Below are positions 3,482-20,252 of a DNA stretch of 20,252 nt, piece after piece. Source of the DNA: a virus. Within the stretch, counting starts at the first letter, position 1. Each line of letters opens with the position of its first letter. The notes under the pieces were generated by a model, which was given only the letters and a program-made list of their open reading frames with translations, was not told where the DNA came from and made no database searches. The DNA lies in the IMG/VR virus record IMGVR_UViG_3300023179_000622, positions 1 through 20,252 of that record. The stretch is one strand, 5' to 3'. The position numbers and the translations under genes were made by a program.

Positions 3482-3775
3482 ATGTTTAAAAAAATCAAGG
3501 AGTTTTTATTTGGTAAACCTATTGAAGTTACGCCGATCGCGGCACCTTATAAAATACCTGAACCTCAGCAACCCTTATCTGTTACCACCAAAGTTGAGCC
3601 TGTAGTATCAGCGATCAAGGAAGTAGCCAAGAAGAAGGCCTCTAAGCCTTCAGTGAAGCCTGCAAATGTAGCTGTTAAAAAGTCGACACCACGCACAGCC
3701 AAAACTACTAAAGCAAAACCAGTGGCAGCAAAAAAAGCATCAACCCCCGCAAAACCAAAATCAAAGAAGATTTAA
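3482..3775 (+). CDS. Lysine/alanine-rich histone-tail-like protein (97 aa)
   Basis: After an amphipathic start (MFKKIKEFLFGKP) and a Pro-rich stretch, residues from about 45 to the end are dominated by Lys, Ala, Pro, Ser and Thr with repeating K(K)A/KP steps (VKPANVAVKKSTPRTAKTTK, PVAAKKASTPAKPKSKKI). This composition is like histone H1 or AlgP-type tails and predicts a disordered, strongly basic nucleic-acid-binding segment. It has an excellent SD (AAGGAGAT) and is one of only three plus-strand genes here. It converges with and overlaps the UV endonuclease gene by 15 bp. A role in DNA compaction or protein-RNA binding is inferred from composition alone. Confidence 0.75.
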   Translation: MFKKIKEFLFGKPIEVTPIAAPYKIPEPQQPLSVTTKVEPVVSAIKEVAKKKASKPSVKPANVAVKKSTPRTAKTTKAKPVAAKKASTPAKPKSKKI

Positions 3776-4792
3776 TTGTTTAGCTTGCTTGGCTAGTTCA
3801 AAACTAGCCAAGTTTTTTGCCTTACTTTCGGCTACGATATCAAAATTTTCTAGGAAAGTCAATGCCCAATCATTGACTGCGGTATTCCAATAAAAATCAC
3901 TATGTGCTCGAATTTTTGACTTTTTATGCCCGCTTTTTAATAAAGCTTGCAGATCGGGCTTGTGAGTTGTAGAATGACCAATTAATAAATCCTCTCGGCT
4001 TACTGAATAGTGAATCGCTGGTCTAACCCCTCTCCAACTATCAATAATCCTTTTTACACGATCATCGGCAGCGTCAATATATTCTCCCGTCATCACCCAA
4101 TGGTGATGAATGTCTAAAACTAATGCTAGGTCTTTGGCGAGCTCTAAGCTTGCACCGATCCCCCAGTTGATTTCGTCGTTTTCAATGGTAATGCAATTCC
4201 TTGCTTCCGGGCTTAATCTCGGAAGTACAGCTCGAATACCAGCTGGGCCAGCACGGCCACTGATATGTACATTGATTTTAAAATCTTGAAATTTTTGCCC
4301 AAACCCCATCCATCGTGCCATATCAGTATGATATTCGAATTCTTCAATACTGCGGTCTACAATATCTGAGGATTCGCTAGCTAAAACAACGAATTGCCCT
4401 GGATGAAAACTAAGCCTGACATCTTTGCTTTTAGCAAGATCACCGATTTGTGCAAAGTGCTTTTGGCAATATGTGACGACATCGGGTCGTCTCCAAAAAT
4501 ATTTCCAATCTTCATGTGTATAAGCTGGCAATATGTCTGAACCTAGTCTAACCATTTTTAGATGAGGTTCTAATTCAGATACTTTAGAAACCAATCTACG
4601 AATAGCTTCAATGTTGAACGTCATTAGATCCCAGAGCTTTTCTTCAGCCACTGAAACAGTCTGACGATTCAACCAAGAAATTGTAGTGCTGGCAGTGTTG
4701 TACTTTTTGCAGTCATCTTTGGCTTTAATTCCGTTAATTTGATCACTGAAATCAATCCATTTGCAGCAAAAACCCAATCGTTTTTTGTTCAT
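3761..4792 (-). CDS. uvsE: UV-damage endonuclease (UvsE/UVDE family)
   Basis: A 343-aa protein, close to the size of bacterial UvsE. UVDE is a TIM-barrel, metal-dependent enzyme that nicks DNA 5' of UV photoproducts and other lesions, starting an excision pathway independent of UvrABC. Visible family motifs are RLGSD (82-86), LSFHPGQFVVLAS (around 127-139), ITIENDE (201-207) and LDIHHH (226-231); the His, Glu and Asp residues are the expected metal ligands. The first residues (KKRLGFCCKWIDFS) match the family's GYCC-like start. A sigma70-like promoter (4818-4846) drives it directly. T4 uses the unrelated DenV for the same task. Confidence 0.93.
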   Translation of the reverse strand: MNKKRLGFCCKWIDFSDQINGIKAKDDCKKYNTASTTISWLNRQTVSVAEEKLWDLMTFNIEAIRRLVSKVSELEPHLKMVRLGSDILPAYTHEDWKYFWRRPDVVTYCQKHFAQIGDLAKSKDVRLSFHPGQFVVLASESSDIVDRSIEEFEYHTDMARWMGFGQKFQDFKINVHISGRAGPAGIRAVLPRLSPEARNCITIENDEINWGIGASLELAKDLALVLDIHHHWVMTGEYIDAADDRVKRIIDSWRGVRPAIHYSVSREDLLIGHSTTHKPDLQALLKSGHKKSKIRAHSDFYWNTAVNDWALTFLENFDIVAESKAKNLASFELAKQAKQLNLL

Positions 4793-5637: not shown

Positions 5638-6879
5638 TTATTGTCCTCTGGTATTGCCGTAATGTATTACTTCAATACCAATTTGATCACGTGGGTAGGT
5701 ACGCCAGGGATCAACAATCACACTACCCTCTTCAATTATGCAATACAGTGGTTGCTCATTGACTTCACCTGAATAACCATAGGTAATTTTTTGATTATGA
5801 GCTAATAGTACTACACCTTTGATGCTATTGGGAACACTGGGTTCTGTCAATGGATCTATGTAAGTGGGAGTAAATCCCAGGTCTTGGCAATACCACCCAA
5901 CCAACAAACTGTAACTACCATCTATATATGACACGTTGGGTTTGTAAGCCTTACCGTGGATGTAAATAGGGAGTTTGGTTCTCTGAGACTGTTTGATCAA
6001 TTCAAAGGCCATGAGTTTTGCTTGCTTTTCTCTGGCATGCATGATGCTGTCAAAAAGATCATAGCCCAAATCTAATTTCTGAGCCAACCAACGCAGTGCG
6101 ATATTATCACGTGGATGACACGGTCCCGCATCTCCTAACCCCGCAGTCATATATTTAGGCCCCATGATACGCATATTACTTGATGCTAGTGCTTGGGTAA
6201 CTACATCAACATTGATATTGCCATTTTTAACTGCTACGTCTTGTATCATGTTTGCCAAACCAATCTTGGCACTTATGAACGTATTGTAAAAAATTTTGAT
6301 GCATTCTGCCTCGTCCCAGGTCCCCACTTCATAGCGTGGAGAATTCTGCATAAAGGTCTTATAAAAATCAATTAATTCAGCAGCATCTTTGTTTATATCT
6401 CCATCTTGGGTGCCAATGATAACCATTTCAGGATTGACCATATCCCATTCTACGCTGCCCATGGCAATCAAATAGGGATTATAAACAAATCTAGCATTAG
6501 TTATATGTTCCCTGAGCTCTCGACGAGTAGTTCCGGGCAAAACTGTACTAATTAACACAACCATTTGGTGTGGTTTGGCAAATTTATTGACTTGACTTAA
6601 TACAGATTTGGTGATTGAATAATCAAAATCCTTATTTTCCAAATGAGTAATGGGTTGGCTACCATCATACTTTGGATCATGCGGAGTTTGTACTGCGATG
6701 AAAATAATATCCTTGCCTTCTACTGCTTCTGCTAATGTAGCGGCAATTTTTACAGTTTTACTGCTTCTTGGCTGTATGTCATATCCTGTAACATCATATC
6801 CAGCTTCAGCCATGACCTGTGCACAAGCCAGACCTAATTTACCAATCCCCACAAATCCAATTTGTTTTTTATTTGACAT
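5638..6879 (-). CDS. Divergent UDP-glucose/GDP-mannose dehydrogenase family protein (413 aa)
   Basis: Family members oxidise a nucleotide sugar twice with NAD to the uronic acid for glycan synthesis. The N-terminal Rossmann fold shows GxGxxG (G11, G13, G16), D34 for NAD and STVLPGTT (111-118). The central region has the catalytic Cys and Asp in CHPRD (C254, D258) and K205/N210 in SAKIGLAN. The C-terminal domain carries IHGKAYKPN (307-315) and IDPLTE. Oddities: the family NPEFLxEG motif is NPYLIAMG (134-141), losing both glutamates, and the DxRxS Arg is replaced (YIDGS). The ATG at 6879 has AAGGA 8 nt upstream; a TTG two codons earlier is less likely. The substrate is unknown. Confidence 0.85.
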   Translation of the reverse strand: MSNKKQIGFVGIGKLGLACAQVMAEAGYDVTGYDIQPRSSKTVKIAATLAEAVEGKDIIFIAVQTPHDPKYDGSQPITHLENKDFDYSITKSVLSQVNKFAKPHQMVVLISTVLPGTTRRELREHITNARFVYNPYLIAMGSVEWDMVNPEMVIIGTQDGDINKDAAELIDFYKTFMQNSPRYEVGTWDEAECIKIFYNTFISAKIGLANMIQDVAVKNGNINVDVVTQALASSNMRIMGPKYMTAGLGDAGPCHPRDNIALRWLAQKLDLGYDLFDSIMHAREKQAKLMAFELIKQSQRTKLPIYIHGKAYKPNVSYIDGSYSLLVGWYCQDLGFTPTYIDPLTEPSVPNSIKGVVLLAHNQKITYGYSGEVNEQPLYCIIEEGSVIVDPWRTYPRDQIGIEVIHYGNTRGQ

Positions 6880-6989
6880 AGACAATTTCCTTAGAAAATT
6901 AATTATACAAGGTATACGCGGGTAACACTAGTATAACGACACAATTATCAATACAGTTTACCTTGTATTTTGAAACACAACTTTAAAAC

Positions 6990-8081: not shown

Positions 8082-8621
8082 TCAAAGGGTGGTCAATGAA
8101 TATCTCGCAACAGCAGATTGAAGTGCTTTGACTTGATAAATGCAATCTGCCAATGCATTGTGTATTTGATCTCTATTAGACTTACGATCGTCACCCAATG
8201 CACCAAATAGGGTTCTGCTATCACGTATGGCATAATATGCCCAGGGTGCTGGTTGACCCAATTGCTTATATAAATTTTCCAGTATAACAATATCAAACAC
8301 GGGACCTTGAGCCCAAATATGTTTATGACCGCTGATAAATTTATTCAATTTTTTGGTAAAAAAATCAAGGCTAACTCTATTCTCAGAGCTAAATGCTTCT
8401 TCTCTAACTTCTGGTTTTTGTTTCCCCCACCATTCTATGGTGCTGTCGTCCGCAACTCTACCAAGATCAAATTGAGAATCCACATCTAATTTTAGATATA
8501 GCTCCTCTATTATATCTGCATCTGGATCAAAAGGATTGAACTTTACTGCTCCCAGCGTGAGAATCACGGCATCAGGGCCTGTGCCCAGTGTTTCCAAATC
8601 CAGCATTATGCTAAAACTCAT
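8082..8621 (-). CDS. dexA: DexA-like DEDDh 3'-5' exonuclease (179 aa)
   Basis: The protein opens with MLDLETLGTGPDAVILTLGA, giving the DxE of motif I (D8, E10). STIEWWGKQKPEVR (60-73) matches the STIEWW segment of T4 DexA. Motif II supplies D110 (GPVFDIVIL), and motif III is HNALADC with H154 and D159, completing the DEDDh set. DexA degrades DNA 3'-5'; the related domain is also called exoribonuclease Rv2179c-like, so RNA is possible. At 179 aa it is shorter than T4 DexA (about 227). The ATG follows the ClpS stop by 3 bp, with AGG near the junction. Confidence 0.88.
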   Translation of the reverse strand: MSFSIMLDLETLGTGPDAVILTLGAVKFNPFDPDADIIEELYLKLDVDSQFDLGRVADDSTIEWWGKQKPEVREEAFSSENRVSLDFFTKKLNKFISGHKHIWAQGPVFDIVILENLYKQLGQPAPWAYYAIRDSRTLFGALGDDRKSNRDQIHNALADCIYQVKALQSAVARYSLTTL

Positions 8622-8624
8622 ATA

Positions 8625-8939
8625 TTACCTAGATGCTTCCAATTTAACTACCAATGGATATCCATTGTTTCTAGCCAACATAGATACTTCCACTCCCTTT
8701 TGTTCTGCCATTTCATAGGGCAAAGTTGCAACAACAGCTGAACCCTCAGTGTGTATTTTGTTAGTCATTTCCTCAGCCTGCGGTTGAGGGTAGTTAAAAA
8801 CGATTACCAATGACTCAATTACAAACTCTTCTGTAGTTATATCATCGTTGATATAAATCACATTGTAGTCAACAGGTTCAGTCAAATTAGTTTTGGGTTT
8901 TATTTTTGGAATTATCTTTGGTTCTGCAATTTCTGTCAT
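8625..8939 (-). CDS. clpS: ClpS-like N-degron adaptor (104 aa)
   Basis: ClpS delivers proteins with destabilising N-terminal residues to the ClpAP protease. The match covers the whole core: YNVIYINDDITTEEFVIESL (25-44) corresponds to YKVxLxNDDYTPMEFVxxVL, followed by the IHTEGSAVVATLPYEMAEQK segment and LARNNGYPLVVKLE. The alpha-amino-group ligands N31, D32, D33 and H63 are kept. Pocket residues differ: the position equivalent to E. coli M40 is E37 and M62 is T59. A roughly 24-residue Lys/Pro-rich N-terminal arm is present, the part that in E. coli engages ClpA. The ATG at 8939 lacks a clear SD; a TTG at 8957 is the alternative start. It lies between Hsp20 and an exonuclease. Confidence 0.9.
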   Translation of the reverse strand: MTEIAEPKIIPKIKPKTNLTEPVDYNVIYINDDITTEEFVIESLVIVFNYPQPQAEEMTNKIHTEGSAVVATLPYEMAEQKGVEVSMLARNNGYPLVVKLEASR

Positions 8940-8970
8940 GATATTTGATATTTTCAATTTGATAATATAG

Positions 8971-8995
8971 TTGGGGCCGATGTCATCGGCCCCAA
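8971..8995 (-). terminator. Perfect GC-rich hairpin after Hsp20
   Basis: Two 12-base arms, TTGGGGCCGATG (8971-8982) and its complement (8984-8995), surround a single T, making a very stable stem 6 bp beyond the Hsp20 stop. There is no T-run on the minus strand, so it may act as a factor-dependent terminator, mRNA 3'-end stabiliser or processing site. The symmetric structure could act on either strand. Confidence 0.7.
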
Positions 8996-9001
8996 CATCA
9001 A

Positions 9002-9448
9002 TTACTTGTCAAAAGTAATTGGAATACGCTTGGGTTTTTGCTCTTCTGGAATAACTTGTTCCAAAGAAATAGACAAGATACCATTGCGTACTTTGGCGCC
9101 CAGAACCTGCATATTATCTGAAAGTGCAAGTTTTCGTGTAAATTCACGAGAACTTATGCCACGATGCAAGTATTCTACAGATTCAGAACCGGACTGTACT
9201 TGTTTACCAACAACAGTCAGCTCATTACCATTTAAATCAACAGTGAGCTCGTTTTCTTCAAATCCCGCAACTGCCAATTCCACCTCATAGCTATAGTCAC
9301 CACGTTTGATGACATTATATGGGGGATAAGCATCATTACTACGACTGTTTGCAAATGTGCGATTCAATTCATTAAAAATGCGATCGAATCCAATTGCATG
9401 ACGATGTAAAGTTGGAAAGTCTAGGGTTGAAAGTTTAAGTTGTGTCAT
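9002..9448 (-). CDS. hsp20: Small heat-shock protein, IbpA-like Hsp20 (148 aa)
   Basis: The protein is an ATP-independent holdase of the alpha-crystallin family. The N-terminal segment has AIGFDRIFNELNR, the domain opens with YPPYNVIK, and AVAGFEENELTV, GISSREFTRKLAL and NGILSISLEQVIPEEQKPKRIPI follow, all matching E. coli IbpA closely in order and spacing. The ATG at 9448 is fixed by AAAGGAGA 6 nt upstream; an open extension to 9502 runs through the leader hairpin and is not credible. It is preceded by a late-type promoter and a 5' stem-loop. Phages of T4-like cyanobacterial and marine groups are known to carry Hsp20, probably helping virion protein folding. Confidence 0.95.
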   Translation of the reverse strand: MTQLKLSTLDFPTLHRHAIGFDRIFNELNRTFANSRSNDAYPPYNVIKRGDYSYEVELAVAGFEENELTVDLNGNELTVVGKQVQSGSESVEYLHRGISSREFTRKLALSDNMQVLGAKVRNGILSISLEQVIPEEQKPKRIPITFDK

Positions 9449-9831: not shown

Positions 9832-10560
9832 TTATTCTTTCTGTGTTGTATTGTTTGTTTTATCTTTAAGCTTGTTAATCCAAGCTGCTAAATCTTGTTG
9901 GCGATCTGGGTGAACATAATCATCGGGATTAGTGGGATCTTTACCATCTGCTGAATAATCACGCTCACGATAAGTTTCATCATCGTTACCACCAGTGACA
10001 TCAGCGCGGTCGTGGTAGACTTGTACTGAGATATTTTTCATTCGCCCCACAGGAGTTGACACATTGTATATCCACCAATCGCTGTGAGCAACTGGACTGA
10101 TACACCCAAAAAATTCAATCCAATCACATGGAATAATTGGAAATAGTGCAAATGGATGATTCATGTTTACGCAGGGCATTCTAAGCAAACCAAAATAACC
10201 GGAATTTTTCAAAACTTCCTGATCCCAGTTTTCAGTAAGCATGACTGCATCATCATTCCAAAACATAAGCCATTGACCCGAGGCTTGCTCTCCTAGAAAG
10301 TTAACATATCGATTGAGTTTTAAATAACCAAATCTTTGTGTTTCAAACACTTTGCTGGAAGCATTGCTTTGTGCTATAAAGTCAGGCCAAACATTTTCAA
10401 AGAATTCTCGGCTTTCATCATCATCATCATCGTAGGCTATTAGAATTTCCAAGTTTTCGCCCATGTTAGTGGCATTAGCTACCAAGCTGCCTAGACTTTT
10501 TACCAGTGCCTCGGTTCGTTTACGTGTAGGTAATAATATTGATATTTTAGGTTTTGTCAT
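9832..10560 (-). CDS. Family 2-type (GT-A) glycosyltransferase (242 aa)
   Basis: The opening MTKPKISILLPTRKRTEALV is typical of GT2 enzymes: a strand that binds the nucleotide sugar and the PTRxR turn. An acidic cluster DDDDDES (44-50) and WNDDAVM (101-107) follow; N-D-D occupies the place of the metal-binding DXD. A later HDRADVTGGNDDE segment may supply the second metal or catalytic His/Asp. Such enzymes transfer sugars from nucleotide donors onto glycans, proteins or, in phages, modified DNA bases. No membrane segment is seen. It overlaps the preceding membrane-protein gene by 14 bp. Donor and acceptor cannot be read from sequence. Confidence 0.85.
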   Translation of the reverse strand: MTKPKISILLPTRKRTEALVKSLGSLVANATNMGENLEILIAYDDDDDESREFFENVWPDFIAQSNASSKVFETQRFGYLKLNRYVNFLGEQASGQWLMFWNDDAVMLTENWDQEVLKNSGYFGLLRMPCVNMNHPFALFPIIPCDWIEFFGCISPVAHSDWWIYNVSTPVGRMKNISVQVYHDRADVTGGNDDETYRERDYSADGKDPTNPDDYVHPDRQQDLAAWINKLKDKTNNTTQKE

Positions 10561-11926
10561 TTTTTAAATTTTGAATTTTTTCTTCAATTAGATCTTGCTC
10601 ACGCTCTGTTAGTTGATTTAAGTCATATTCGTTGTTTTCTAATCTTTCAATGAGATAGGACAAATATTCATCGTCGTAATTATATTTGCTGGCTTGTGCT
10701 TTGTCAACTTCTATCCACTGTGCACCATTGAATTTGAACATTCTATTGGGAACATAGTCCACTCTTATGTAAACATCCCCACGCACTACATCTGTGGGAA
10801 ATTTAATCCCATAACGTCTATTACCAAAGGCATTAGCCTGAGGTGCATTGTCAGCCTGTGGGATTAATTGTTCAGACAATTTGAGCTCGTCCAAGGGATT
10901 ATTAGAAGGGTGCTCATTGGCAATGATAGAGTCTGATCCAGCTGGCATATCTCCTATACTAGAACTAATTTTATCGTCGGTGATTACCGATGTTATGGTG
11001 GAACTGGTGTTCGCAACCATGGGGCTAAGATTTTTAAAATGACTGAAAGATTTTTTTAAATAGGGATTGGAATCTAGAATTTTAGACTCCAAAGGCTTCG
11101 TTTGGGGTGCCTCGTCATTGACTGTGGGTTTGGGTGATTCTTCGGTTTTGGGCTTGCTGGTGGTTTTTTCAAGTTTTGCCCATTTAATACTTTGTTGACC
11201 TGATAAAATCAATACCAAGGCCAAGGGATCAAACACCAGAACAATTATAATAATGACCCAACGAACAGCACGTTCCAATAAGTTAGAATCCGGATTGTCT
11301 CCGTAGAGCAAAGCTGCGATATATTTGATAGGACCAACTTCAACTTCGGCCTTTCTAACCTCTACAGCAATTGGTGCTCGTTGCTCATTTAATTTATCTA
11401 TTTTAGCTTGGCTGGCAGAAAGATCAGCCAGCAATTTTTGTCTTTCGCGTTGCTGACTTTTACGAGTATTGACTGCTTTGTCTGCTCCAGATTCTGAAGT
11501 TGACCTACTCATTAGTTGGTCAACTGAATCATCCATTTGTTTTAATGCTTTACGAATATTTTGACTATTTTCTTTTTCCGTGGCTATCTTTTCATCTAAT
11601 AACGCAACCTGAGCCGATATATTTCCAGTAGAGGACGATTGATCTAAATGTGCCTTTGATAACCCACCAAAAATACCCATGCTGGTTAATAGCATTAAAA
11701 TACCCACTGCCGGCACTAGATAGAGTTTATATGTTATATTGGCTCTGTGCCAATTTAGCTTTAACCACATTGCAGCCGTGACTTTTCCCACCTCCAAGGC
11801 AGTTCCCAATATGACTATTGGCCAAAAAGAGCCAGGAAATATTGCGGTTAACCCCACTACAGAGTAAAAAGCACTGATAACAGATATTGTTACAGCAACA
11901 AATAAAGTATAAAGTCCGAATAACAT
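10547..11926 (-). CDS. Membrane-anchored coiled-coil protein (459 aa)
   Basis: Hydrophobic segments at about residues 2-28, 36-55, 69-90 and 221-242 enclose a long charged helical region (about 101-195) with heptad-like spacing (ALLDEKIATEKENSQNIRKA), likely a coiled coil. After the last span comes a Pro/Ser/Thr/Lys-rich linker, then a beta-rich segment near residues 370-405 (RYGIKFPTDVVRGDVYIRVD, FKFNGAQWIEV) like small domains seen in phage adhesin or tail proteins, and an acidic helical tail. I do not recognise the whole protein. A role in the host envelope is likely from topology. A late-type TAAATAC element lies about 63 bp upstream; the SD is weak. Confidence 0.7.
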   Translation of the reverse strand: MLFGLYTLFVAVTISVISAFYSVVGLTAIFPGSFWPIVILGTALEVGKVTAAMWLKLNWHRANITYKLYLVPAVGILMLLTSMGIFGGLSKAHLDQSSSTGNISAQVALLDEKIATEKENSQNIRKALKQMDDSVDQLMSRSTSESGADKAVNTRKSQQRERQKLLADLSASQAKIDKLNEQRAPIAVEVRKAEVEVGPIKYIAALLYGDNPDSNLLERAVRWVIIIIVLVFDPLALVLILSGQQSIKWAKLEKTTSKPKTEESPKPTVNDEAPQTKPLESKILDSNPYLKKSFSHFKNLSPMVANTSSTITSVITDDKISSSIGDMPAGSDSIIANEHPSNNPLDELKLSEQLIPQADNAPQANAFGNRRYGIKFPTDVVRGDVYIRVDYVPNRMFKFNGAQWIEVDKAQASKYNYDDEYLSYLIERLENNEYDLNQLTEREQDLIEEKIQNLKNDKT

Positions 11927-14352: not shown

Positions 14353-14925
14353 TTATTTGTAAAAAATATGTTGACCAATTTGATTAATTTTTTCCCGATC
14401 CCAGCCAGGTTTTATATATGCTGCGTGATAAAACATAGCTTGAGTTAGGCTAGGAAGTCTAAAATTTTCCAATAAAACACGTTTAGCTACCTCTTCGCTT
14501 TCTACATATTGTTTAGCTGATATAGCCTGAGTTCGATACTTTGTTTCGCAAGCCCAGCTGAACTGGCAAATCACCTTCTCATAAAATACATTCTTTTGGT
14601 AAACAACTCCACACACCCCAGACCCAAACTTTCCTGAGGCAACTCGATTTATTGTTACCTGCGCCACTGCTACTTTGCCCTCAAAAGGCTCATTGGCCGC
14701 TTCCCAGTAAATATTTTTAGTCAAACAATCTAGCTGCTTTACTCTTTCACTGGCAGTGATACCAACTACCTCTTGTGAGGCTATTTCAGTACGTAATGCT
14801 TGAAATTTTCTTACTGTGATATTTTCTAAAAACACAGCAATTAATACTATACCCAACACCATAACGCCTAGTTTTAAAACTGAAATAGCTTTGTTAAAGT
14901 ACCTGGCGGATTCAATAGAAGCCAT
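14353..14925 (-). CDS. SleB-type cell-wall hydrolase with N-terminal membrane anchor (190 aa)
   Basis: I start it at the ATG at 14925 (MASIESARYFNKAIS), with AAAGGAA about 6 nt upstream. A single hydrophobic span (about residues 16-33) follows, then a charged linker, then the hydrolase_2/SleB domain: CLTKNIYWEAANEPFEGKVA (67-86) with the probable catalytic Glu E75, VAQVTINRV, CGVVYQKNVFYEKVICQFSW, and a C-terminal MFYHAAYIKPGW...IGQHIFYK. This family cleaves peptidoglycan (lytic transglycosylase/amidase-type). The anchor makes it a candidate signal-anchor-release endolysin, which would explain a lysin distant from the holin candidates. Cys residues (67, and others around 111-133) could mediate disulphide control. 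Confidence 0.9.
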   Translation of the reverse strand: MASIESARYFNKAISVLKLGVMVLGIVLIAVFLENITVRKFQALRTEIASQEVVGITASERVKQLDCLTKNIYWEAANEPFEGKVAVAQVTINRVASGKFGSGVCGVVYQKNVFYEKVICQFSWACETKYRTQAISAKQYVESEEVAKRVLLENFRLPSLTQAMFYHAAYIKPGWDREKINQIGQHIFYK

Positions 14926-14997
14926 TGTATTTCCTTTCATGAAATATAAAGCACAGGAAAACCCCCATGCAAATAAGTTAAGTAGTTAACAGGTACT

Positions 14998-17899: not shown

Positions 17900-18220
17900 T
17901 TAAATTATTATAGGTCCCTTAGACAAGGTCTTTATACCTGTGGTCGTTTGCAAGTAATGACCTTGAAGAGCGTCGATAGTTACTGAATGCATCATTACAT
18001 GCTCATATCTTAGCTCTATGTCTTTATTTATATCTGCAGAAAACAGGCTTTGCATTAAGCCCAGCCCTTGTTGACTTGGTACTACTGTACATGGCCGGTT
18101 TAAAACCCACCCATGTGGTGTGGTTTCCACTATTTTTGCTACTATTTCGTCCCCATTTACTAGTTTAAATGCAACAATTTCTCCTGTTTTATATTGGCTA
18201 TTAACTTTCAGCTTCAGCAT
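17900..18220 (-). CDS. Small beta-rich hypothetical protein (106 aa)
   Basis: The protein starts MLKLKVNSQYKTGEIVAFKL and reads as successive strands (VAFKLVNGDEIVAKIVETTP, GWVLNRPCTVVPSQQGLGLM) like the small beta-barrel proteins with an LxxGxEIxAKV motif common in T4-like phages, which can resemble Sm/Lsm folds; this is inference. Its ATG lies inside the end of the glutaredoxin gene (20-bp overlap) with an AAGGA 8 nt upstream, also inside that gene, so the overlap seems genuine. Confidence 0.75.
   Translation of the reverse strand: MLKLKVNSQYKTGEIVAFKLVNGDEIVAKIVETTPHGWVLNRPCTVVPSQQGLGLMQSLFSADINKDIELRYEHVMMHSVTIDALQGHYLQTTTGIKTLSKGPIII
18025..18032 (-). promoter_or_regulatory. Exact TATAAATA inside a gene, possible late promoter for PAAR
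   Basis: This is the only exact match to the T4 late consensus TATAAATA that I found. It points toward the PAAR gene, 134 bp downstream, but lies within the preceding coding sequence and could be chance in AT-rich DNA. Confidence 0.35.
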
Positions 18221-18461
18221 TGACGTTTTCCTTTAATTGATTTAAATATGTTTTTAGTTCTGTAAACCCACCTATATGCGAGTCATCAATAAAAATTTGT
18301 GGAACTGATCTCGCAGTGGGAACAGCTTCTAATAATTCTTCTTTAGTGTAACCGTCTCCGATTTTCTTTTCTTCAAACGGTATTCCTTTGCTTTGCAACA
18401 AAGCCTTGGCTTGATCACAATAGGGACAATTGGGTTTACTCCATATAATAGCAGTATTCAT
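18201..18461 (-). CDS. nrdC: Glutaredoxin (86 aa)
   Basis: The CPYC active site lies at residues 12-15 (KPNCPYC), followed by the cis-Pro strand SVPQIFIDD and the GGFTEL glutathione-binding turn, which together define a dithiol glutaredoxin of the normal 80-90 aa length. It probably reduces the phage ribonucleotide reductase directly, receiving electrons from host glutathione. The gene comes 12 bp after nrdB, with AGGAG 6 nt before the ATG. I use nrdC in the functional sense; T4 NrdC is a glutaredoxin/thioredoxin hybrid. Confidence 0.93.
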   Translation of the reverse strand: MNTAIIWSKPNCPYCDQAKALLQSKGIPFEEKKIGDGYTKEELLEAVPTARSVPQIFIDDSHIGGFTELKTYLNQLKENVNAEAES

Positions 18462-18473
18462 TTTTTCTCCTGT

Positions 18474-19577
18474 TTATAAGTTTGGTAATTCATCATAATC
18501 TAGTTTATCGGATAACACTCCGATAACATAGTTTGTACTTTCAGTTTCTTGTAATGCTGATTGCTTGTTTGAAATGTTTGTATGTTTCGTAAACCACGGA
18601 ATGGGAGTGGTTTTAGGTGACAACGACTGATAACGAATACCTATTTCCTTTAATGCAGATACGGCTGTGAAATCTACAAACTCTTTAAGAACAGCCGCAT
18701 TTAATCCAATCACTGGACCTTTCTTAAACAAATAGTCGGCCCAAGCCTTTTCTTCACGAATCACATCCATGTATAATGCGTATACTTCGGCTTCGCATTC
18801 TTGCTTAATTTCAGCAAATCTACTATCTTCCTTGATTACTTGATTGATGATATATGCAGTCCACTCTTTGTGTAACAATTCATCTTGTAAAATTAAGCTA
18901 ATGATATTACCATTACCGATGAAAATCTTATTCTCTACCATGGCTAAACTTGTAGCAAAACTCACCATGAATCTAAATGCTTCAAGTGCATAGCTTGCAT
19001 GTAGTGCTAACCAAATAGCTTTGATATGCTCTTTTTCATTTACTAACATTTCCGCAATTTCTTTTTGACAGTTTAGTTTATGCAAATAATCATAATGCTG
19101 ACCTACACTACTGGCCATATCAACAATTTCTTTGGTATCATGTATTGTGTTGAATACATCCTTGGGAACATTATAGATATTACGAATAATATGACTATAG
19201 CTCTTACTGTGAATATTTGATTCAAAAAATCCCCAGTTAAACATCAATGCTTCTACTTCGGGCAATGAGCATACTGGTGTAAAGACTTGTGTGGGACCTC
19301 GGCCCTGTAAACTATCTAATGCAGTTTGTCTCAAAACGTTACTGGTAAAGATATGTCTTACTGCATCACTGGCATTTTTAAAATCCCCCGAGTCTTTAGT
19401 CAAACTAATTTCTTCGGGTTGCCAAAAATAACCACGTGCAGTTGCTTCAAAGTCTGCAATCTTTTTGTACTTAACTTCCTCAAACCGTTGTACAGTTACT
19501 GGGCCTTGTGGGTCTAGAAACATCTTACGACTTAAATAATCTGTTTTTGTTGTTAAATTGTATTGTTGTTTTGACAT
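18474..19577 (-). CDS. nrdB: Ribonucleoside-diphosphate reductase beta subunit, class Ia-type (367 aa)
   Basis: The beta subunit holds the di-metal/tyrosyl-radical cofactor that starts the reduction of NDPs to dNDPs in the alpha subunit. Ligands are visible: D88 in LDSLQGR, E119 and H123 in FFESNIHSKSY, E199 in ALEAFRF, and E233/H236 in QDELLH; Y127 corresponds to the radical tyrosine. Between E119 and H123 there is one residue more than in the E. coli SETIHSRSY helix. The length matches the family (about 375). It lies 21 bp after nrdA and 12 bp before glutaredoxin. The ATG at 19577 (MSKQQYNLTT) has only a weak SD. Confidence 0.95.
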   Translation of the reverse strand: MSKQQYNLTTKTDYLSRKMFLDPQGPVTVQRFEEVKYKKIADFEATARGYFWQPEEISLTKDSGDFKNASDAVRHIFTSNVLRQTALDSLQGRGPTQVFTPVCSLPEVEALMFNWGFFESNIHSKSYSHIIRNIYNVPKDVFNTIHDTKEIVDMASSVGQHYDYLHKLNCQKEIAEMLVNEKEHIKAIWLALHASYALEAFRFMVSFATSLAMVENKIFIGNGNIISLILQDELLHKEWTAYIINQVIKEDSRFAEIKQECEAEVYALYMDVIREEKAWADYLFKKGPVIGLNAAVLKEFVDFTAVSALKEIGIRYQSLSPKTTPIPWFTKHTNISNKQSALQETESTNYVIGVLSDKLDYDELPNL

Positions 19578-19598
19578 ATTGATCTCAGAGTTTACACG

Positions 19599-20252
19599 TT
19601 ATAATTTGCAGGCGGCACAATCTTCTTCATCATCGAATTCTATCGCATCAAGCATAGTCGGGGCTTCTTCTGCGGCAGCTTTTGCACCTAGCTTATCAAT
19701 GAGACTATAATATATCGTCTTCAAACCCCAGTAGTGTGCCAACATTAAATTCTTAGCAATTAGTGTAACTGGTACTTTACGGTCTGCAAAGTGTTTAGGT
19801 GAATAAAAAGTATTTGTGGAAATAGATTGGTCAACATATGCTGCCAATACAGCAGCAGTTTTTAAGTAATCAACACAATCAGTTTGATCCCACATTAATT
19901 GATATTTGTTTTTCAACTTATGATATTCTGGTACTACTTGAGTGAATGATCCTGCTTTACTTTCTTTGACACTAACTAAACTCATGGGCAATTCAATACC
20001 ATTGGTGCTGTTAATGACCACTGAGCTAGATTCAACTGGCGCTATGGCCATTTGTGTAGCATTACGAACACCATACTTTTTCATTTCTGCGCGTAAGTGT
20101 TCCCAGTCTAATTCTGGAGTAAAGTCTGTTAGATCGTTAACTCCGTTAGCACGTAATTCCCAAGGAAACACACCTTGTCCATATCGTGTACGATCACTAT
20201 TTAAACACTTGCCACGTTCTTTTGCTAATTCAACACTAGACTCAGTTAGATA
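19599..20252 (-). CDS. nrdA: Ribonucleoside-diphosphate reductase alpha subunit, C-terminal 217 residues (partial)
   Basis: The frame is open to the right edge (YLTESSVELAKERGKCLNSD...), so the 5' two thirds are outside. The segment covers the C-terminal part of the catalytic barrel (VPEYHKLKNKYQLMWDQTDC, DQSISTNTFYS) and LMLAHYWGLKTIYYSLIDKL, in which the paired tyrosines correspond to Y730/Y731 of the radical-transfer path. The protein ends EEDCAACKL, the mobile redox-active Cys pair that is rereduced by glutaredoxin; here it is CxxC, tighter than the CxxxxC of E. coli. nrdB follows after 21 bp. Confidence 0.93.
   Translation of the reverse strand, partial: YLTESSVELAKERGKCLNSDRTRYGQGVFPWELRANGVNDLTDFTPELDWEHLRAEMKKYGVRNATQMAIAPVESSSVVINSTNGIELPMSLVSVKESKAGSFTQVVPEYHKLKNKYQLMWDQTDCVDYLKTAAVLAAYVDQSISTNTFYSPKHFADRKVPVTLIAKNLMLAHYWGLKTIYYSLIDKLGAKAAAEEAPTMLDAIEFDDEEDCAACKL

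Follow-up and report, generated by a model that had tools for sequence, protein, structure and literature searches.

A ClpS adaptor with a variable gatekeeper position encoded beside Hsp20 in a jumbo phage lineage

Results

A clpS gene between hsp20 and an exonuclease gene

The window analyzed here is a 20,252-nucleotide stretch of viral DNA (positions 1 to 20,252 of IMG/VR record IMGVR_UViG_3300023179_000622) in which a clpS gene lies between genes for a small heat shock protein (Hsp20) and an Rv2179c-like 3'-5' exonuclease (Table 1). Searches of Pfam, PHROGs and NCBIfam placed the clpS product above the cut-off of the Pfam ClpS family (78.4 versus 23 bits) and matched it to two PHROG families labelled 'ATP-dependent protease'. 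Its top score against the NCBIfam ClpS equivalog models fell below their cut-offs (61.2 versus 143 bits), which marks the protein as a divergent ClpS; we claim family membership for it and not equivalog status. An AlphaFold2 model had a core pLDDT of ~95 and low values over the first ~20 residues (~59 over residues 1-20). All 36 Foldseek matches to this model at E <= 0.001 were ClpS entries, and the closest, E. coli ClpS, agreed with it to 0.6 A over ~84 alignment columns. The Pfam match and the predicted fold both agree with an earlier note on this DNA that had named the open reading frame ClpS. An in-frame TTG at position 8957 offers a possible start 6 aa further upstream. The window ClpS is real and its fold is ordinary; it is the setting that is interesting.

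Table 1. Features of the clpS locus (window coordinates; residue numbers are those of the window ClpS unless marked E. coli)
Feature	Position	Strand	Basis or remark
Rv2179c-like 3'-5' exonuclease, downstream neighbour of clpS	8082..8621	-	Pfam PF16473, 123 bits
clpS, 104 aa	8625..8939	-	ATG start; Pfam PF02617, 78.4 bits; AlphaFold2 core with E. coli ClpS as top PDB matches
E76-E84 (EMAEQKGVE), region facing ClpA in E. coli ClpS	8688..8714	-	E. coli positions 79, 81-85 and 87 unchanged in 86 proteins
H63, amine ligand (E. coli H66)	8751..8753	-	His 82/87, Asn 5/87
T59 codon (E. coli M62)	8763..8765	-	Alignment
GAA codon, E37 (E. coli M40 gatekeeper)	8829..8831	-	Alignment
N31-D32, amine ligands (E. 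coli N34-D35)	8844..8849	-	Invariant in 87/87
N-terminal extension, residues 1-22, up to junction proline P22	8874..8939	-	Low pLDDT
12-bp perfect hairpin in the 62-nt hsp20-clpS spacer	8970..8996	-	
hsp20 (small heat shock protein), directly upstream of clpS	9002..9448	-	Pfam PF00011, 66 bits

Conservation of the neighbourhood was counted across 152 loci, which reduced to 94 distinct contexts; seven of these had less than 900 bp upstream and were dropped (six of the seven do show Hsp20). In 86 of the 87 distinct viral contexts that remained, the 900 bp upstream of ClpS contained an Hsp20 gene in the same orientation, which in 84 lay within 250 bp; the sole miss was Vibrio phage 2.275.O. This count reflects conservation by descent, mostly in one lineage, and not 86 events. 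A homologue of the downstream exonuclease was present in 69 of 80 related loci. Among 11 phages that carry ClpA, ClpP and ClpS, an Hsp20 match was found in only four and was absent from seven.

The spacer between hsp20 and clpS was extracted from 92 loci, and the 80 distinct spacers of 16-249 nt were counted. Hairpins with z < -2 were detected in 78 of these, at a similar place and with varying sequence. The motif TATAAT was present in 59 of the 80 (~5 expected from shuffles), often just past the hsp20 stop codon and before the hairpin; it was absent from the window's own hsp20-clpS spacer. Hairpin and TATAAT together suggest that hsp20 and clpS may have separate transcripts, and the arrangement could represent a terminator plus a promoter; alternatively, the clpS message could carry the hairpin at its 5' end.

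Other genes of the window were also inspected. The product of positions 10547-11926 (459 aa) is hydrophobic in its N-terminal part and weakly matches a virion structural family; a homologous stretch was found upstream of hsp20-clpS in 65 of 80 related loci. Positions 18201-20171, 14353-14940, 3761-4792 and 5638-6885 encode functions that are usual in large phages (ribonucleotide reductase subunits, a cell wall hydrolase, a UvdE-type endonuclease and UDP-glucose dehydrogenase); the ORF at 18201-18461 was named glutaredoxin-like by eye.

The amine ligands and the N-terminal extension are conserved

Bacteria degrade N-degron proteins with ClpAP and ClpS, and the residue at position 40 of ClpS contributes to the choice of accepted N-termini. 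Alignment of the window ClpS to E. coli ClpS placed N31, D32, D33 and H63 at N34, D35, D36 and H66, E37 at M40 and T59 at M62. The earlier note had assigned these residues correctly, and its claim that the amine ligands are kept holds; we take the equivalents of N34, D35 and H66 to be these ligands, a role known from ClpS structures. With E. coli numbering used from here on, the window pocket keeps V43, V65 (as Ile) and L99 and replaces M40 by Glu and M62 by Thr.

Relatives were collected from viral contigs in two scans (160 and at least 432 confirmed), and 80 were kept from each. The resulting set of 87 distinct ClpS proteins includes the window protein, one from a contig of a metagenome-assembled genome (MAG; L082), one found with the PA5oct ClpS as query (L154) and other relatives. 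N34, D35, T38, V43 and L99 were identical in all 87 distinct relatives listed, window included, and H66 was replaced only by Asn, in five proteins. The length up to the junction between extension and core was 18-42 residues in 84 of the 87, with proline at the junction in 85; the three remaining lengths (-7, -7 and 7) reflect contig edges or odd starts and were scored as misses.

These data bear on the possibility that the viral ClpS is an anti-protease, which would occupy ClpA without delivery and thereby spare phage proteins, for example those tagged by tmRNA. E. coli ClpS does inhibit ClpAP degradation of ssrA substrates (excerpt of PMC9663308), hydrophobic side chains might bind less well with a Glu at the mouth of the pocket, and amine ligands are missing from some ClpS proteins of other jumbo phages. 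An inhibitor would, however, have no need of N34 and D35, kept in 87 of 87 members of the lineage, or of H66, kept in 82. The extension that is used in delivery and its junction proline are kept as well; in E. coli this extension is pulled on by ClpA (excerpt of PMC9663308). We consider an anti-protease role quite improbable. The frozen N34 and D35 argue that N-terminal recognition is the selected function in the window lineage, and the retained extension and junction proline favour delivery.

Position 40 is labile and Glu40 is confined to the window

Substitution at each alignment column was examined for 86 proteins (L154 left out) with a tree inferred after removal of columns 40 and 62. Few forks of the ClpS tree were well supported (7 of 107 starred), so the change counts given here are rough. 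Position 40 was Gln in 42 of the 87 distinct proteins, Met in 30, Val in five, Phe in four, Ile in two, and Lys, Glu, Ala and Arg in one each; these nine residue types required at least 18 changes on the tree, which ranked the position 16 of 80 columns. Rim positions 36, 40 and 63 required at least 19, 18 and 41 changes (86 proteins). Position 62 was Thr in 77, Cys in five and Ala in five of the 87, window included, and required four changes.

Glu40 was found only in the window contig among the 87 distinct relatives listed. The five rows nearest to the window ClpS by tree path had Gln at this position, and the codons of eight close relatives were CAA (six), CAG (one; Gln) and CGA (one; Arg), so that the GAA codon of the window is one base off the relatives' Gln codon. 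We therefore rejected a coordinated Glu/Thr specificity switch, the joint alteration that the earlier note had read into the pocket: Thr62 is general in the family and Glu40 occurs in a single contig. The headline change of the pocket is a single-sequence difference at a labile position. A Glu gatekeeper should give the entrance of the pocket a polar character and a negative charge.

Cellular ClpS proteins were compared at the same positions. Twelve Pseudomonadota ClpS had Met (eight) or Arg (four) at position 40 and Met at position 62 in every case. A further 30 were taken from the phylum of one Bacteroidetes MAG; they are close to the best-scoring loci (59 of 61 genomes had a match) and include two rows with an odd motif, perhaps in the wrong frame (L177 and L180). 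Position 40 was Phe in 28 of these and Tyr in two, and position 62 was Thr in 15, Ala in 11 and Ser in four. Half of the pair described in the earlier note, Thr62, is thus matched in 15 of 30 cellular proteins of one phylum and is not peculiar to phages, and non-Met gatekeepers are present in several lineages; the other half is not matched, position 40 of that phylum being Phe or Tyr and Glu occurring in none of the 42 cellular ClpS compared.

One account of Glu40 is neutral drift at a tolerant position, without functional meaning. The nine residue types, the number of changes and the single-base origin from Gln fit this account, as does the persistence of ClpS in bacteria and plants that have Arg, Phe or Tyr at position 40. 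The rank of only 16 among 80 columns also means that the lability may be neutral. Against it, position 40 is reported to control the binding of N-termini in E. coli and Arabidopsis. E. coli Met40 excludes beta-branched residues, as the earlier note had stated, and Leptospira ClpS1 has Tyr there (excerpt of PMC12493166); Arabidopsis ClpS1 has an Arg gatekeeper and a restricted specificity (excerpt of PMC7966870). Neutrality would be surprising on this basis if N-degron delivery matters. We regard drift as a real possibility that falls somewhat short of probable, and it is compatible with the explanation that we prefer.

A region that presumably faces ClpA is frozen

In contrast to position 40, the stretch equivalent to E76-E84 of the window protein was nearly fixed; we take it to be the ClpA-facing side, as in crystals of E. 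coli ClpS with the ClpA N-domain. Positions 79, 81-85 and 87 showed zero changes in 86 proteins, while 80 and 86 varied. The invariant residues were E79 (87 of 87), A81, E82, Q83, G85 and E87, with K84 in 86 of 87. Q83 and G85 were present together in all 87 members of the window lineage and in none of 14 bacterial ClpS compared. The idea that these letters are phage-specific was rejected, since E87 occurs in three of the 14 bacterial sequences and Q83/G85 is absent from other jumbo phages; the Q83/G85 pair is specific to the window lineage. A frozen region of this kind is expected if it is fitted to a phage ClpA, and is no proof of it. Our literature search on ClpS-ClpA contact residues returned nothing useful.

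ClpA and ClpP accompany ClpS in related phages

ClpA and ClpP were searched for in 14 large metagenomic contigs that carry a window-type ClpS, several of which are fragments. Clp_N was detected in 10, ClpP in nine and both in eight; PA5oct, searched beside them, had both. ClpP was absent from G007 and G009, Clp_N from G015, and both from G010, G017 and G020; these six contigs are 79-167 kb, except G007 at 354 kb. The contig G002 encodes a ClpS 76% identical to that of the window (L004), shares many window genes, and carries ClpA, ClpP and ClpS. Neither ClpA nor ClpP was seen in the window itself, a 20-kb fragment that is too short to show them.

ClpA ORFs were extracted from 10 contigs and PA5oct. 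All 11 were 739-770 aa long, with two Walker A motifs, an IGF motif and two pore loops, one of them KYR and the other of GYVG type (GYIG in one ORF). For the four that were scanned, NCBIfam ClpA was the best model at 791-828 bits, under its equivalog cut-off of 993. In nine extracted ClpP proteins (eight contigs and PA5oct, with the ninth contig, G008, left out) the Ser, His and Asp positions that we take to be catalytic were conserved. The ClpP proteins of two related phages, L216 (G004) and L222 (G006), agree in their first halves and differ in their second halves, with a 10-residue insertion and MIHRV replacing MIHQP; the second half looks as though it had been recombined or swapped. Bacteria were represented in the ClpA tree by only two rows, so its phage clade is little informative, and most forks of a 78-column ClpS tree that bears on whether phage ClpS forms one lineage were weak.

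Named phage records were examined as well. A tblastn search with two ClpS queries matched 15 and 18 of 50,697 phage records, some of them bacterial contigs. Two records of 'Acinetobacter phage MD-2021a' and one 4.9-kb faecal contig (MT838771) were left out, and all 16 named ClpS-positive records kept (14 genomes) also carried ClpA and ClpP. The MD-2021a records were rejected as phage ClpS on account of bacterial clpS-clpA neighbours: clpS is followed by clpA in both contigs (CAKLQF020000008.1, L085, and CAKLQH020000043.1), and the one examined has argC and aroF nearby and looks like host chromosome filed as phage. When 12 phage records with ClpA were searched with profiles, ClpS (>23 bits, three of the matches weak at 25-34 bits) was found in 11 and ClpP in the same 11; the remaining record, a 735-kb phage, had ClpA and no ClpS or ClpP match. 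The view that ClpS is unusual in phages is therefore sound for phages at large and fails for this jumbo-phage group. Scans of viral contigs with the PA5oct ClpS found one relative, and with the Phosso ClpS none.

In the main proposal of the earlier note, the viral ClpS may divert host ClpAP towards different N-termini. Conservation of E79 in 87 and of K84 in 86 of 87 proteins, in a region that presumably contacts ClpA, is in keeping with this, and a 2021 overview states that some jumbo phages have ClpP and that several others have 'instead' a ClpS for host ClpAP (excerpt of PMC7824862). The record counts above speak against this exchange, since all 11 records matched by the ClpS profile also had ClpP. 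The ClpS example of the overview, AMM43882.1 (excerpt of PMC7824862), has an accession number near that of the phage CBB ClpA (AMM43800.1) and is probably a CBB protein; ClpA, ClpP and ClpS matches were all found in CBB. Relatives supply ClpA and ClpP of their own, so that a host partner is not required; the presence of phage ClpA in 16 of 16 named ClpS records and the lineage-specific Q83 and G85 in the presumed ClpA-facing region also count against one. Host ClpA could still be a partner; redirection of host ClpAP is not supported in the form given by the earlier note, and we think it unlikely.

Phage affiliation and source of N-degrons

The major capsid protein gp23 was found in seven of 21 records searched, one of them partial. 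In a large relative it was 68-74% identical to the capsids of Phosso, Vibrio phage 2.275.O, PA5oct and GAP32-like phages (best 25 of 2,479 records; phages of Pseudomonadota), which places this relative, on capsid similarity, with the T4-related jumbo phages. A first scan of bacterial genome contigs for the phage-type ClpS gave no match, and a second gave one, a 4.4-kb contig (DLXM01000205.1, L082) in a Bacteroidetes MAG whose ClpS is 58% identical to that of the window. It may be phage DNA that was binned with the MAG, or may hint at the host, and is too thin for naming one. An AmoC search of 15 records gave no match, nor did any control, and a link to pmoC-bearing phages was given no weight.

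No Leu/Phe-tRNA transferase was detected in 22 records, so N-degrons would come from the host or from proteolysis. Peptide deformylase was present in one of the 22, Sinorhizobium phage Phosso (L249), directly before clpA.

Discussion

We consider it somewhat more probable than not that the window encodes a working ClpS of a T4-related freshwater jumbo phage, which docks on phage ClpA and delivers N-degron proteins to phage ClpP. The phage ClpS would dock on a phage-encoded ClpA that unfolds proteins into a phage-encoded ClpP, and would hand over proteins with particular N-terminal residues while other ClpA substrates are blocked. We infer that the window phage encodes both partners from their presence in its relatives; since phages that have ClpS usually encode ClpA and ClpP themselves, docking on phage ClpA seems more likely than redirection of host ClpAP. 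The kept ligands would grip the N-terminal amine in the normal way. The rim of the pocket, which reads the side chain, may be under weak or shifting selection, and the accepted N-termini would then probably differ between related phages. Hsp20, from the adjacent gene, would act in this pathway by holding unfolded proteins.

A bolder form of this explanation is that the lineage degrades N-degron proteins with a system of its own (phage ClpA, ClpP and ClpS, with Hsp20), in which docking and amine grip are frozen and the gatekeeper is repeatedly retuned, such that sister phages degrade different N-terminal classes. We hold this to be doubtful at present; if it is true, the shifting targets would be host or defence proteins. 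Phages that supply ClpA and ClpP as well would have a self-contained protease acting during infection, and nine gatekeepers on one fixed phage ClpS scaffold form a natural test set for the rule that relates this residue to specificity. The ClpA-ClpP-ClpS set, the Hsp20 neighbour and the variable gatekeeper are worth a biochemical test. In the excerpts of open-licence literature that we searched, we found neither a pairing of Hsp20 with ClpS nor variation of the phage ClpS gatekeeper reported.

Compared with E. coli ClpS (PDB 1MBU, 2WA8 and 3O2B), the window protein has a like fold (0.6-1.1 A for most core matches) and shares N34/D35/H66, V43, L99, E79, K84 and the extension with its junction proline. 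The two are 33% identical and differ by M40E, M62T, T83Q, V85G and M87E, the last also seen in three bacterial ClpS2-type sequences; E. coli clpS lies beside clpA, whereas clpS of the window lies beside hsp20. Agrobacterium ClpS2 (4YJM) and Arabidopsis ClpS1 (7D34) likewise have a natural non-Met gatekeeper, but it is Arg and not Glu, and Agrobacterium ClpS2 keeps Met at position 62 where the window has Thr.

Among phages, Atu_ph07, Phosso, PA5oct and Salicola SCTP-2 carry ClpS with ClpA and ClpP, although their ClpS sequences have diverged and their gatekeepers (Leu, Met, Met and Phe, respectively) differ from the Glu of the window. Hsp20 lies directly upstream of ClpS in PA5oct, as in the window, and one gene away in Phosso and Atu_ph07, with thymidine kinase between; SCTP-2 has no Hsp20 beside ClpS. 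N34 and H66 are lost in Atu_ph07 and H66 in Vibrio phage 2.275.O. Across 11 other jumbo-phage ClpS, all three ligands (N34, D35 and H66) were kept only in Phosso, PA5oct and SCTP-2 and at least one was lost in the other eight, which suggests that N-degron binding is not general among phage ClpS and counts slightly against the explanation that we prefer. Phages of the RaK2/121Q/GAP32 type have long ClpS-like proteins of 177-183 aa that match Pfam ClpS, with ClpA and ClpP in the same phages, amine ligands partly or wholly replaced, and no Hsp20 match. The six seen here (CBB, XbC2, GAP32, Munch, RaK2 and 121Q; L243-L248) have extra N-terminal length. Such proteins are perhaps adaptors for something besides N-degrons.

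Some parts of this arrangement have been described. ClpA is common in Moraphages and Hsp20 occurs in some of them (excerpt of PMC12619734). In 2018, ClpA, a Clp proteolytic subunit and ClpS were listed among seven Clp-like proteins of Atu_ph07, and clearance of aggregates was suggested (excerpt of PMC6102473). The combination of ClpA, ClpP and ClpS in one phage was thus already known, and it is the Hsp20-ClpS pair and the labile gatekeeper that are less expected.
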